Shown piece by piece: positions 7,027 through 59,822 of a stretch of 64,000 bases of DNA. The notes beneath the pieces were generated by a model. It was not told the origin of the DNA, ran no database searches, and saw only the letters and a list, made by a program, of their open reading frames with translations. A program made the position numbers and the translations under genes. Location: assembly GCF_030341905.1 (NCBI RefSeq), contig NZ_JATAAF010000003.1, positions 124,001-188,000 on the forward strand, in the 5' to 3' direction. The stretch is from Porticoccus sp. W117. Lineage in GTDB: Bacteria > Pseudomonadota > Gammaproteobacteria > Pseudomonadales > Porticoccaceae. How positions within the stretch are numbered: position 1 is the first letter of the stretch; the number at the start of each line of letters is the position of its first letter.

Positions 7027-7103
7027 GTCATCCCCGCGTAGGCGGGGATCCATCGTTGTTCGGAGCATCGAGCTATATGGATTCCCGCCTGCGCGGGAAT
7101 GAC
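7027..7103. repeat. Family C inverted repeat (GTCATCCCCGCG type)
   Basis: GTCATCCCCGCGTAGGCGGG and ATCCAT face a second arm ATGGATTCCCGCCTGCGCGG, then GAATGAC. It lies between serC and serA. Other copies are at 39771-39830 and 59791-59930, also between genes that act together. Confidence 0.85.
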
Positions 7104-21120: not shown

Positions 21121-21201
21121 GTCATCCTGAGGGAGTGTAGCGACCGCGAGGATCTCAGTATCCAGTTAACTATAGAGATCCTTCGCTACGCTCAGGATGA
21201 C
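21121..21201. repeat. Family B inverted repeat (GTCATCCTGAG type)
   Basis: GTCATCCTGAGGGAGTGTAG and the CGAGGATCTCAG segment face AGAGATCCTTCGCTACGCTC and AGGATGAC. It lies between the convergent lipoprotein and ridA genes, where it could act as a bidirectional stem. Confidence 0.85.
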
Positions 21202-25968: not shown

Positions 25969-26027
25969 TTTATTTAAAGGCTGTAAAATGTCCGCCTTTA
26001 GAAATCACCTTGAACAAGGAACTCAGT

Positions 26028-26756
26028 ATGACCCGCCCCAGCGGCCGCCGCCCGGAACAGCTTCGCCCCGTTAAAATCACTCGCCACTACACCAAGCATG
26101 CCGAGGGCTCGGTACTGGTGGAGTTTGGTGACACCAAAGTGATCTGTACTGCCAGTGTTGAAAACGGCGTACCGCGCTTTTTGCGGGGCAGCGGCCAGGG
26201 TTGGGTGACCGCGGAATACGGTATGTTGCCGCGCTCCACCGGTGACCGTATGGGCCGTGAGGCGGCCCGTGGTAAACAGGGCGGCCGCACCCTGGAAATT
26301 CAGCGCTTGATCGGTCGTTCGCTGCGTGCCGCAGTGGACCTGCAAGCGCTGGGCGAAAATACCATCACCATCGACTGCGATGTGATTCAGGCAGACGGTG
26401 GCACTCGCACCGCTTCCATCACCGGTGCTTGCGTGGCGCTGGTGGATGCCATTGAGCACCTGCGCAAAGCCGGCAAAATCAAAGCTAAAGGCACCCCGCT
26501 GAAAAGCATGATTGCTTCAGTATCGGTGGGTATTTATCAGGGCACCCCGGTGCTGGATCTGGACTACCCGGAAGACTCCAACGCGGAGACTGACATGAAC
26601 GTGGTAATGAACGCCGAAGGTGGTTTTATCGAAGTACAGGGCACAGCAGAAGCCGCGCCCTTTACGGCGGATGAAATGGCACAGATGATGGAGTTGGCCA
26701 AGCGGGGTATCACGCAATTGGTTAATGTGCAGAAGATGTCGTTGGCCCAGCCGTAG
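26028..26756 (+). CDS. rph: Ribonuclease PH
   Basis: 242 residues from the ATG at 26028 with AAGGA upstream. The enzyme trims tRNA 3' ends by phosphorolysis. [20 protein letters not shown], the active-site [19 protein letters not shown] and [19 protein letters not shown], and [19 protein letters not shown] are conserved. The full length suggests an active enzyme. A hairpin-rich sequence (26778-26820) follows. Confidence 0.97.
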
Positions 26757-29150: not shown

Positions 29151-29236
29151 GTCATCCTGAGGGAGCGGAGCGACCGCGAGGATCCCACAACTTGCAGGCT
29201 TTGAGATCCTCACGCCGCTTTGCGGCTCAGGATGAC
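29151..29236. repeat. Family B inverted repeat
   Basis: GTCATCCTGAGGGAGCGGAG and GCGAGGATCCCAC face GAGATCCTCACGCCGCTTTG and CGGCTCAGGATGAC. It lies between the convergent DUF4124-like and slmA genes, ending 8 bases from the slmA stop. Confidence 0.85.
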
Positions 29237-34342: not shown

Positions 34343-34507
34343 CTGCGGGCCGCGGGCTTCTGGCGGCGAGCTGGCTGGTATGTAATTGTCATCCTGAGCG
34401 TTAGCGAAGGATCTCCTTGTGGCGAAGTGTGAGATTCTTCGCTAACGCTCAGAATGACAAGGCTTGCTCGATCTGCTCGTAGCCAGAAGCTCGTCGCCCG
34501 TAGCCGA
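34340..34507. repeat. Composite D-B-D' repeat between radC and rpmB
   Basis: The radC stop TAG is the first codon of a forward D copy (CTGCGGGCCGCGGGCTTC, to about 34378). A B repeat follows at 34388-34458 (GTCATCCTGAGCGTTAGCG facing CGCTAACGCTCAGAATGAC). A reverse D copy (TGCTCGTAGCCAGAAGCTCG, about 34463-34507) closes it. The 56580-56697 site has the same D-B-D' order. Confidence 0.7.
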
Positions 34508-35171: not shown

Positions 35172-35261
35172 GTCATCCTGAGGAGGCGTAGCCGACGTGA
35201 GGATCTAAAGGCTGGCAGGTTATGAGATCCTCACGTCGCCCTCCGGGCTCCTCAGGATGAC
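35172..35261. repeat. Family B inverted repeat
   Basis: GTCATCCTGAGGAGGCGTAG and CGACGTGAGGATCT face AGATCCTCACGTCGCCCTCC and CTCCTCAGGATGAC. Between rpmG and exbD. Confidence 0.85.
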
Positions 35262-39770: not shown

Positions 39771-39830
39771 TGGATCCCCGCCTGCGCAGGGATGACCCGG
39801 ATTCGTCATTCCCGCGAAGGCGGGAATCCA
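39771..39830. repeat. Family C inverted repeat between nrdA and nrdB
   Basis: TGGATCCCCGCCTGCGCAGG then GATGAC faces GTCATTCCCGCGAAGGCGGG then AATCCA. It separates two genes that are normally co-transcribed. Confidence 0.8.
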
Positions 39831-41005: not shown

Positions 41006-41032
41006 GTCATCCTGAGCACAGCTCAGGATGAC
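41006..41032. repeat. Compact family B palindrome
   Basis: GTCATCCTGAG-CACAG-CTCAGGATGAC, the minimal form of the B repeat: both ends meet with almost no centre. It lies between nrdB and the ferredoxin gene. Confidence 0.85.
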
Positions 41033-41596: not shown

Positions 41597-41635
41597 GTCA
41601 TCCTGAGCCGCGTAGCGGCGTGAGGATCTCACAAC
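41597..41635 (+). repeat. Family B repeat, left end of the GIY-YIG cassette
   Basis: GTCATCCTGAGCCGCGTAGC then GGCGTGAGGATCTCACAAC; exact reverse complement of 41953-41991. Confidence 0.9.
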
Positions 41636-41919
41636 TCCAATAATTCCTTCCAAGCTGGGTTTTGCGACTCAATCAATGCAACTTTCTTTGCTCGTCGCCA
41701 GGACTTGATTTGTTTTTCACGTTCTATGGCGGATCGCACAGAAGGTGTTTCTTCAAAATAAACCAGCTTGTGGCACCGGTACTGGCTGGTAAAGCCGGGC
41801 ACCGAGCCGGAGCGGTGTTCATAGAGTCTCCGTTCCAGGTTATTTGTGATCCCAGTGTATAGCACCCGGTTAAAGTGATTCGTCAGGATATAAACAAAAA
41901 AACTGCTTGAAGATGGCAT
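41629..41919 (-). CDS. GIY-YIG family endonuclease (stand-alone domain)
   Basis: 96 residues, a single GIY-YIG domain. FFVYILTNHFNRVLYTGITNN gives the VYI and YTG motif pair. LERRLYEHRSG supplies the arginine, and SAIEREKQIKSWRRAKKVAL holds the usual glutamate. Small proteins of this UPF0213/YhbQ-like type are common, and their role is unclear. The gene ends inside a B repeat (stop TGA from GGATCTCAC) and is enclosed by perfect inverted B repeats, so the nuclease may act on those repeats. Confidence 0.88.
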   Translation of the reverse strand: MPSSSSFFVYILTNHFNRVLYTGITNNLERRLYEHRSGSVPGFTSQYRCHKLVYFEETPSVRSAIEREKQIKSWRRAKKVALIESQNPAWKELLEL

Positions 41920-41952
41920 ATAAAATCCTTTTTGTTGCGTGCCATTTGGGTG

Positions 41953-41991
41953 GTTGTGAGATCCTCACGCCGCTACGCGGCTCAGGATGAC
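41953..41991 (-). repeat. Family B repeat, right end of the GIY-YIG cassette
   Basis: GTTGTGAGATCCTCACGCCG then CTACGCGGCTCAGGATGAC, the exact inverse of 41597-41635, about 34 bases upstream of the nuclease start. Confidence 0.9.
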
Positions 41992-42006: not shown

Positions 42007-42044
42007 GTCATACTGAGTCGCCAAAGGCGACGTGAGGATCTCAC
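42007..42044 (+). repeat. Family B repeat at the patatin stop
   Basis: GTCATACTGAGTCGCCAAAG then GCGACGTGAGGATCTCAC. The minus-strand patatin gene takes its TGA stop (42041-42043) from ATCTCAC. Confidence 0.75.
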
Positions 42045-42865
42045 AGCTGTTGTAACTTATCTTCAAATTCCGCCATCGCCGGAGCTGCCTGCTCAAAAAC
42101 CTCTTCAATCATGTCGAAGTCCAGGGTGCGTACTCCGACGATCTTTGGCTTCAGATAAACAGAGGGCGGCGATTTTGCCAGCCGTTGCCGGTCAGCATTT
42201 TCCAGCAGAATATCAAAGGTGCCCAATACCGCGTCCAGCAGGCCGGGCACGGCTTCTTTCTCTTGCGGTACCCGGGTGGGGGCAACATCCACGGCAACAG
42301 TGCAGTCGCATTCCGGTGGTAACAGATCGTAAGGCAGGTTGTTGGCGATACCGCCGTCCACCAGTACCCGGCCGTCGATTTCCACTGGCGGGAATACGCC
42401 GGGTATGGCCATGCTGGCTTTCAGCGCGGGCAGCAGCTCGCCGCTGCGAAACTCCACCACCTCGCCGCTCCAATAATCCGTGGCGACCACGGTGAGGGGA
42501 ATTTTCAATTCCTCAAAGGTGCGCACCTCAATCAAATCCAGCAGGTAATGCAGGGCGCCATCTGCATTGAGAAAGCCGCCGCGACGCAGGGTGGGGGTGG
42601 CCAGCTTAAGCCACTTCAGCAGGTCGGTTTTTTTCGCGAGAATATTTTTCAGGTCATCGCCCTTGCGGATGATATGGCGGTTTACTCCGGCGTGAATGTC
42701 CTCTCCCGACAGGCCTGATGCGTACAGGGCGCCGATGATGGCACCCATACTGGCACCGGCAATGGCGGCGGGTTTAATGCCGCACTTGTCCAGTGTTTCC
42801 AGTGCCAGAATATGGGCCAGGCCACGCACGCCACCGCCACCTAAAGCAATTCCTGTTTTTGCCAT
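42041..42865 (-). CDS. Patatin-like phospholipase (RssA type)
   Basis: 274 residues from the ATG at 42865. The oxyanion GGGGVRGLAHI starts near residue 9, the nucleophile is in AGASMGAIIGALY (Gly-x-Ser-x-Gly), and the catalytic Asp is in DGGIANNLP. Members hydrolyse lipids; the RssA branch is small and cytosolic. The last codons and stop come from a family B repeat. A T element (42893-42996) lies just upstream of the start. Confidence 0.88.
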   Translation of the reverse strand: MAKTGIALGGGGVRGLAHILALETLDKCGIKPAAIAGASMGAIIGALYASGLSGEDIHAGVNRHIIRKGDDLKNILAKKTDLLKWLKLATPTLRRGGFLNADGALHYLLDLIEVRTFEELKIPLTVVATDYWSGEVVEFRSGELLPALKASMAIPGVFPPVEIDGRVLVDGGIANNLPYDLLPPECDCTVAVDVAPTRVPQEKEAVPGLLDAVLGTFDILLENADRQRLAKSPPSVYLKPKIVGVRTLDFDMIEEVFEQAAPAMAEFEDKLQQL

Positions 42866-42892: not shown

Positions 42893-42996
42893 GTGGACAG
42901 GGTATGGCTTGCTGTGACCGTGGCCAGCATGGATGCTGGCCACGAGCCCCCATGGATGGGTTTACGGCGAGTCGCAGCAAGCCATACCCTGTCCAC
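42893..42996. repeat. T element copy 3 (inverted relative to copies 1 and 2)
   Basis: Outer arms 42893-42914 and 42975-42996 are perfectly complementary over 22 bp and extend to 26 with one mismatch. Reading the minus strand the core gives TCGCCGTAAAC, hairpin I (CCCA-TCCA-TGGG), joint GGGCTCGT, hairpin II (GGCCAGCA-TCCA-TGCTGGCC). It lies between gbuA and the patatin gene, both on the minus strand. Confidence 0.85.
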
Positions 42997-56581: not shown

Positions 56582-56697
56582 CTACGAGCCGTGTGCTACG
56601 GGCTTCGGGCGGATCGAGCGTTGTTATCGCTGCGCTCAGGGTGACAACTGTTTCAATCTGCTCGCTGCCCGTAGCCAGTAGCCCGCGGCTCAGCTAC
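56579..56697. repeat. Composite D-B-D' repeat after rpe
   Basis: The rpe stop TAG is followed directly by CTACGAGCCGTGTGCTACGG and GCTTCGGGC (forward D). A half B copy (TCGCTGCGCTCAGGGTGAC, about 56628-56646) and a reverse D copy (GCTCGCTGCCCGTAGCCAGT, about 56658-56697) complete it. Same order as the radC-rpmB site. Confidence 0.65.
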
Positions 56698-59224: not shown

Positions 59225-59822
59225 TAACTACGATTCCTTCACTTACAACGTCGTGCAGTACTTGGCGGAGCTGGATGCTGAGGTGAAAGTGGTGCGCAAC
59301 GACGAGTTGAGCGTTGACGATATAGAACAGTTGGCACCGGAGCGTATTGTGATTTCCCCCGGCCCCTGCACACCTAACGAGGCAGGTGTATCGGTGGCAG
59401 CCATTGAACGCTTTGCAGGAAAAATCCCCCTGCTGGGTATTTGCCTGGGGCACCAGAGTATTGGCCAGGCATTCGGTGGCAAAATTGTGCGCGCCAAACA
59501 GGTGATGCACGGCAAAACCTCGTTGGTGCATCACAACAACAGCGGTGTTTTCAAAGGCTTGAGCAACCCGTTTACCGTGACACGCTACCATTCACTGGTA
59601 ATCGACCAGGCAACTCTACCGGAGTGTTTGGAGGTCACTGCCTGGACTGAAAATGACGATGGCAGCCTGGACGAAATAATGGGCGTGCGCCACTGGGAAC
59701 TGGGTATAGAAGGTGTGCAGTTTCATCCAGAGTCCATTCTTACCGAGCATGGCCACGATTTGTTAAGGAATTTTTTGGAATTGAGTATTCGTCATCCCCG
59801 CGAAGGCGGGGATCCATCTTGA
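59208..59822 (+). CDS. trpG: Anthranilate synthase component II (glutamine amidotransferase)
   Basis: 204 residues from the ATG at 59208, inside the 3' end of the channel gene. [20 protein letters not shown], the active cysteine in [17 protein letters not shown], and the His-Glu pair in [14 protein letters not shown] are intact. It hydrolyses glutamine for TrpE. The last about 11 residues ([10 protein letters not shown]) are encoded by a family C repeat that also supplies the stop codon. Confidence 0.95.

Follow-up and report, generated by a model that had tools for sequence, protein, structure and literature searches.

The 395-bp unit at positions 41597-41991 of the window (the whole stretch of 64,000 nucleotides of Porticoccus sp. 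W117 DNA that was analysed) is probably a minimal mobile element (estimated probability, about 0.7), which would consist of a gene for a structure-reading GIY-YIG nuclease and two outward-pointing CGTC-type REPs and would have spread gene-less facing REP pairs in trans by putative cleavage and transposition. GIY-YIG/REP units of this kind are best read as a RAYT/REP-like system built on an unrelated nuclease. The observations behind this reading are the anatomy of the unit, a clade-specific association of gene and repeats, the co-variation of repeat type with the protein, co-variation within the outer stem of the repeats, sites that lack the unit, and multi-copy units whose ends coincide exactly with REPs.

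The initial annotation described a 395-bp unit with identical inverted ends, a lone GIY-YIG gene whose stop codon lies in the left end, and further copies of the same repeat (the B repeat) that mostly form facing pairs without a gene, and each of these points held. The two 39-bp copies match perfectly, the stop codon TGA (TCA on the plus strand, 41629-41631) is located inside the left copy, and 13 core sites were found beyond the two ends, 10 of them in five facing pairs, one in a third copy (42007) and two single. The features are as follows.

41597..41635, plus strand: left REP end, 39 bp, with the TGTC tag outward; contains the stop codon of the GIY-YIG gene
41953..41991, minus strand: right REP end, 39 bp, with the CGTC tag outward; identical inverted copy of the left end
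41629..41919, minus strand: stand-alone GIY-YIG nuclease gene, 96 aa (open reading frame and PF01541 match, E 8e-19)
42007..42046, plus strand: third REP copy, diverged, with core GTCATACTGAG; tag-to-tag with the right end and 15 bp outside it
41006..41032 (cores 41006/41022), unstranded: facing REP pair without a gene, collapsed
21121..21201 (cores 21121/21191), unstranded: facing REP pair without a gene
29151..29236 (cores 29151/29226), unstranded: facing REP pair without a gene
34388..34458 (cores 34388/34448), unstranded: facing REP pair without a gene, of the short GAAGGATC subtype, resembling the C12 unit
35172..35261 (cores 35172/35251), unstranded: facing REP pair without a gene, directly after a terminator-like hairpin and T run
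26022..26032, minus strand: single core match with one mismatch, which may be due to chance
56635..56645, minus strand: single core match with one mismatch, which may be due to chance

The core GTCATCCTGAG, allowing up to one mismatch, occurs 15 times in the window (100 shuffles: mean 0.68, maximum 3). The best inverted match that spans the gene has a score of 39, whereas none of 388 control spans scored above 13. The perfect ends, the one sign of it, suggest that the window copy may have been active recently. As a candidate for a clean empty site at this locus, the interval between the ferredoxin and patatin genes was inspected in genomes G001 and G002; the unit is absent from both, an absence that proves little because G002 has other coding-like DNA there and the two genes are about 4 kb apart in G001.

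In each B repeat, an outward-pointing (C/T)GTC tag is followed by a 5-bp stem that opens with AT, and then by an internal loop, the inner hairpin, the second strand of the stem and a tail. The passages of Di Nocera et al. (PMC3733652) drawn on here describe CGTC-tagged REPs, as of 2013, as mostly intergenic repeats of five phyla with no assigned enzyme, whose published families have an 8-9-bp stem and a CCA tail and include the neisserial dRS3 and the rickettsial RPE-4/RPE-6. The unit ends TGTCATCC and CGTCATCC carry the CGTC/TGTC tag and the AT-starting stem of this class, and the five facing pairs in the window correspond to its mostly facing (HH) dimers. The B repeat differs from the families described in those passages in having a 5-bp outer stem, an internal loop and a CTC tail instead of the 8-9-bp stem, the 4-5-nt loop and the CCA-like tail, and it is therefore CGTC-like rather than a member of a published family; hairpin-type repeats with an 8-9-bp stem, a 4-5-nt loop and a CCA-like tail were found beside other genes of clade A (the close relatives of the window protein). 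In 300 of the 389 distinct repeats, the two strands of the outer 5-bp stem are complementary to each other, far above shuffled repeats (mean 62.6, maximum 88), indicating that it is conserved through compensatory change. When folded alone as DNA, the 39-nt B repeat forms the inner stem together with another hairpin located in the tail, but not the outer stem (z -2.9), which slightly lowers confidence in the mobile-element explanation. For two short REPs, the DNA folds were no more stable than those of shuffled sequences (z -0.3 and -0.4).

The protein is a GIY-YIG enzyme, PF01541 (E 8e-19) being its sole Pfam match, and its structure model has a pLDDT of 92. In a structure search with this model, the best PDB match was the UPF0213 protein 1zg2 (E 6e-5, the only match below 1e-3), followed by the branched-DNA nuclease Slx1 (E 3e-3) and the N-domain of UvrC (E 0.07), and these neighbours of the predicted fold fit a nuclease that reads DNA structure. 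Eight residues (Y10, Y21, G23, R31, H35, E68, K72 and R76), which we take to be of the catalytic type, are invariant in all 82 rows of the alignment. The HUH Y1 transposase domain that marks RAYTs (PF01797) was not found in the window protein. UPF0213-type stand-alone GIY-YIG proteins (PDB 1zg2 and 1ywl) share its fold and size and belong to clade B, which collects the other stand-alone GIY-YIG genes; unlike clade A, they mostly give one match per genome and are rarely located beside such repeats (3/18 and 2/20 loci in the two samples below).

The first locus set (n=95) consisted of the best 80 loci of a species-genome scan and 15 clade A loci from the own genome and family. The tag motif GTC[AG]TNN[CT]GA, scored within 250 bp of the gene, was present at 87 of the 95 clade A loci versus 3 of 18 clade B loci, and with reversed letters at 7/95; its density at clade A loci was 6.89/kb near the gene versus 0.30/kb in the far zone beyond 600 bp (n=95). 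It was found on both sides of the gene in 64 of the 87 clade A loci with full flanks, and the tags pointed outward on both sides in 53 of these 87. Because the clade B set was chosen by locus number, it includes L091, a fragment of 42 aa at a contig end of genome G046 that is 62% identical to the window protein; this locus, one of the three clade B motif hits, probably belongs to clade A, and without it the clade B counts become 2/17 for the tag motif as well as for the five-type rule. The latter rule, which recognizes five repeat types within 300 bp of the gene and was built on the same loci with twelve plasmid-collection loci added, identified 105 of 107 clade A loci versus 3/18 clade B loci, counts that refer to the loci on which it was made. 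A near-perfect-stem hairpin detector misses the B repeats, and the tag and type rules were used in its place. By a separate measure, the inverted repeat spanning the gene beats every control in 34 of 106 loci, with none of 17 clade B loci among them.

Because the five-type rule had been made on its own test loci, a fresh sample was drawn under the fixed rule from 274 genomes of the class, comprising 29 new loci and 20 further down the match list and skipping own-genome copies and two loci near contig ends; for comparison, 20 lower-scoring clade B loci were taken that were free of stops and had long enough flanks. Repeats were recognized at 39 of the 49 clade A loci versus 2 of the 20 clade B loci (Fisher p 1e-7), with reversed letters at 1/49 and 3/20, and the density was 3.65/kb near versus 0.25/kb far from the gene. 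Among the 42 loci with full flanks, 21 had repeats on both sides and 19 had tags outward on both sides. Ten of the 49 clade A loci fail the fixed rule; in six of them (L270, L291, L293, L295, L324 and L331), inspection by eye revealed GTC-tagged hairpins outside it, a judgement made post hoc. Homologues lacking any association with B repeats would have told against the initial annotation; the opposite was found, at 87/95 and 39/49 for clade A versus 3/18 and 2/20 for clade B.

Among the matches listed, clade A genes flanked by such repeats occur in more than a dozen phyla, the groups represented being Chloroflexi, Bacillota/Clostridia, Acidobacteria, Cyanobacteria, Nitrospinaceae, Nitrospira, Bacteroidetes, Chlorobiaceae, Ignavibacteriae, Spirochaetes, Omnitrophota, Kuenenia, several candidate phyla and Proteobacteria. 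Groups named as CGTC-REP carriers in the cited passages of PMC3733652 are among those with such units, i.e. Neisseriae (N. gonorrhoeae, with dRS3), S. meliloti, A. lipoferum and N. aromaticivorans. In the plasmid collection, 11 of the 12 loci examined (from 35 matching records) are flanked by tagged repeats; no REP was seen at the exception in R. tumorigenes (L179), nor at L126, which has no left flank. On plasmid p1 of Planktothrix agardhii (L177), a GIY-YIG unit and REP arrays lie between an MmeI-type restriction gene and the DISARM gene drmA.

The repeat type follows the protein phylogeny. On a protein tree of 91 columns with many unresolved forks, 25 changes of repeat type were counted compared with a shuffled mean of 54.1 and minimum of 45 (0/500 shuffles as low), and after thinning to 96 rows below 80% identity there were 24 changes compared with 47.6 (minimum 39); the CC repeat type taken alone is not clustered on the tree (42/500 shuffles as low).

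The same matching is seen within the 3.28-Mb genome of the window, which contains 173 exact GTCATCCTGAG cores versus 1 match for the reversed pattern. Four GIY-YIG genes were identified in this genome, one of which (C13) belongs to clade B, and the three clade A genes each have a different flanking repeat subtype: the window gene has the long subtype (GTCATCCTGAG..GTGAGGATC), the C12 gene the short subtype (GTCATCCTGAG..GAAGGATC), and the C54 gene the subtype CGTCATTGCGAG..GCAATCCAG. The stretches of this genome that were examined hold 53 distinct repeat copies (26 long, 17 short and 10 other), and 35 stretches gave 23 facing-pair matches, one of which is nested in another. Some REP pairs (at L024, L028, L029, L030 and window 34388-34458) are apparently enclosed by a larger palindrome that has GCAGAT close to its inner end; the recurring GCAGAT flank was considered as a target site and set aside, as it looked like part of this palindrome instead.

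Two further repeat families were encountered. Perfect-hairpin CGTC REPs (CGTCATYCCCGC..GCGGGRATCC) are present at window positions 7027-7103, 39774-39827 and 59791-59813 and at 86 sites in the window's genome, in which no matching hairpin-type GIY-YIG gene was found; there they are an orphan family, and genome G002 has 74 such sites together with a matching gene (L266). Hairpin-type CGTC REPs of G002 on one strand at C1:1252181-1253189, most with a spacing of about 197 bp, are likely a tandem array. The second of these families is unrelated; it includes window 42894-42995, and many copies of it are present in the own genome and in both relatives from the genus.

Repeat dosage was measured in 112 family genomes as the excess of GTCATNNYGAG over the reversed control, with a clade A cut-off of E < 1e-19 and with G046, the genome holding L091, counted as lacking clade A. 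The 13 genomes with a clade A gene have a median excess of 19 versus 7 in the rest (one-sided p 4e-4), and an excess of at least 40 was found in 5/13 genomes with clade A versus 4/99 without (the repeat-rich genomes without the gene being G001, G031, G042 and G059). Repeats exceed twice the control in 21 of 23 genomes or records reached through clade A loci; Nostoc G123 has a clade A gene but no excess repeats, and G121 has little excess.

Orthologous sites without the unit were looked for and found in Azospirillum and Sphingobium, supporting mobile behaviour. In A. lipoferum 4B, a block composed of a REP dimer, the gene and another REP dimer lies between sufB and sufC, and this block is missing from the aligned sufB-sufC region of four relatives (A. 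oryzae, A. ramasamyi, B510 and A. argentinense; flank identity 88-95%). Sphingobium strains TomMM7A and TomMM15 have a unit between fnrL and a response-regulator gene, where TomTYG74 contains a fused REP palindrome only and TomTYG72 and S. herbicidovorans have no unit. A comparison in Shinella was abandoned, the sequences around the unit being too diverged to place its ends.

GIY-YIG/repeat units were also counted in other genomes. The 0.8-Mb genome G122 (Staskawiczbacteria) gave seven profile matches, four of which are REP-gene-REP units of 375-391 bp at unrelated sites, and these copies, which are 80-87% identical pairwise and all start with TGTCATTGCG and end with CGCAATGACA, likewise support mobility. 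No target-site duplication was obvious at the four units; flanking G/C runs were seen only in the nested units of G124. In the latter genome, four units (L228-L231) are enclosed by an outer terminal repeat, CATARGCGYTAACTTAA, and G- or C-run flanks are present at three of them, an apparent composite element for which another transposase may be the carrier; because of this nesting, G122 was used as the multi-copy case. L240, a fifth copy in G122, and L236 have related genes with REP types that differ, the junction falling exactly at the repeat's inner border, which gives the impression of a swapped repeat.

These sites also bear on a homing-type alternative, in which the GIY-YIG gene would be a parasite that cuts REP pairs spread by something else and inserts itself there, the REPs being its target and not its offspring. 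GIY-YIG homing endonucleases (I-TevI, Seg type) are a known class, related to the window protein at the level of the nuclease superfamily and alike in that the gene is spread by a nuclease. The usual position of the gene between REPs suits this possibility, as do the related G122 genes that carry different REP types joined at the repeat border, and the gene-less REP of TomTYG74 at the place of the TomMM7A unit fits gene gain as well as loss. However, no tagged REP was seen by eye at the aligned Azospirillum sites without the unit, repeats are more numerous in the family genomes with a clade A gene, and it is the whole REP-gene-REP segment that recurs at four unrelated sites of G122. Homing endonucleases also differ in having an intron or single homing site; no fixed site in a conserved gene or intron was found for the units, which occupy dispersed, unrelated intergenic sites with repeats at both ends. 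A homing-type origin is considered unlikely.

A housekeeping DNA-repair nuclease that cuts REP hairpins or cruciforms to protect replication, with the nearby REPs as its binding or regulatory sites, appears more doubtful still. The structural neighbours, UPF0213 first and then the branched-DNA nuclease Slx1, are in keeping with such a role, and the parts of PMC1839093 consulted as a source report an SOS box at one of three C. crescentus COG2827 genes. Against this stand the patchy presence of the gene (clade A at E < 1e-19 in 13/112 family genomes), the unrelatedness of the insertion sites and the occurrence of repeats on both sides in 64/87 loci.

It is very improbable that these REPs owe their spread to HUH tyrosine transposases (RAYTs, PF01797) acting in trans and that the GIY-YIG gene is incidental. 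Three PF01797 matches (C5, C12 and C16) do exist in the window's genome, and RAYTs are linked to REPs, namely GTAG REPs, in the cited parts of PMC3733652 and PMC8266576. However, PF01797, present in 33 of the 112 family genomes, shows no link to repeat excess (p 0.82), and the repeat-rich G002, with 254 motif sites, has no PF01797 match; RAYTs as the mobilizer were not supported. Moreover, in the core matches listed for contigs C1 to C21, none of the three PF01797 genes has a GTCATCCTGAG core closer than 6 kb, and the passages used from PMC3733652 report no PF01797 gene flanked by CGTC units. The idea that REPs accumulate beside any short dispensable gene, without function, draws on their mostly intergenic location (PMC3733652, in the passages cited) and is hardly credible, since clade B genes of the same size, the short-gene controls here, have them in only 3/18 and 2/20 loci and the repeat type follows the protein phylogeny.

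In the favoured mobile-element reading, the REP would extrude as a hairpin, built of the GTC tag, outer stem, internal loop and inner hairpin or, in other families, of a perfect stem, and the cognate nuclease would recognize the tag and stem and nick at the hairpin base. Host repair may then copy the freed REP-to-REP segment into intergenic DNA or join it there, an insertion that would leave no obvious target duplication, and the gene-less facing pairs would be derivatives of the unit moved in trans. No covalent DNA intermediates are known for GIY-YIG enzymes, so that re-joining would need host enzymes. Several observations count against this explanation: not every gene is framed by repeats (the tags point outward on both sides in 53/87 and 19/42 loci), some loci are misses, some repeat-rich genomes have no gene, the 86 perfect-hairpin CGTC sites of the window's genome lack a matching gene there, Nostoc G123 and G121 have the gene with no or little repeat excess, the B repeat does not fold as expected, and the G124 units are nested.

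The initial annotation likened the logic of the unit to RAYT/REP systems with a different nuclease, a comparison strengthened by the clade-specific association, the co-variation and the signs of mobility. As in RAYT/TnpAREP REPtrons, a small nuclease gene is flanked by tagged imperfect palindromes, repeat families are matched to nuclease groups, and gene-less repeats occur as facing pairs. The differences are the GIY-YIG nuclease, which is unrelated to HUH Y1 transposases, the GTC(AT) tag in place of GTAG, and the compactness of the units (375-395 bp in the two genomes measured). Because the enzyme family differs, the GIY-YIG/REP units are RAYT/REP-like in their working and not a member of that system.

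Among the top-ranked matches of a full-text literature search, whose scope did not extend to preprints and much subscription literature, no published link between GIY-YIG proteins and REPs was found. The clade A enzyme probably supplies what a common class of bacterial repeats has lacked, a partner that spreads them. On a wider scale, we lean slightly towards the view that these units form a class of mobile elements found across bacteria, with a GIY-YIG nuclease as their sole protein, which would have made and would maintain most CGTC/TGTC REP families, such as dRS3 of Neisseria and the repeats of Rhizobiales, without a DDE, HUH, tyrosine or serine enzyme. A nuclease matched type by type to CGTC REPs makes the origin of these repeats testable, brings into REP biology another enzyme class that is unrelated to the first, and points to a function for many genes (at least 530 relatives) that are labelled just 'GIY-YIG nuclease family protein' or 'excinuclease ABC subunit C'.
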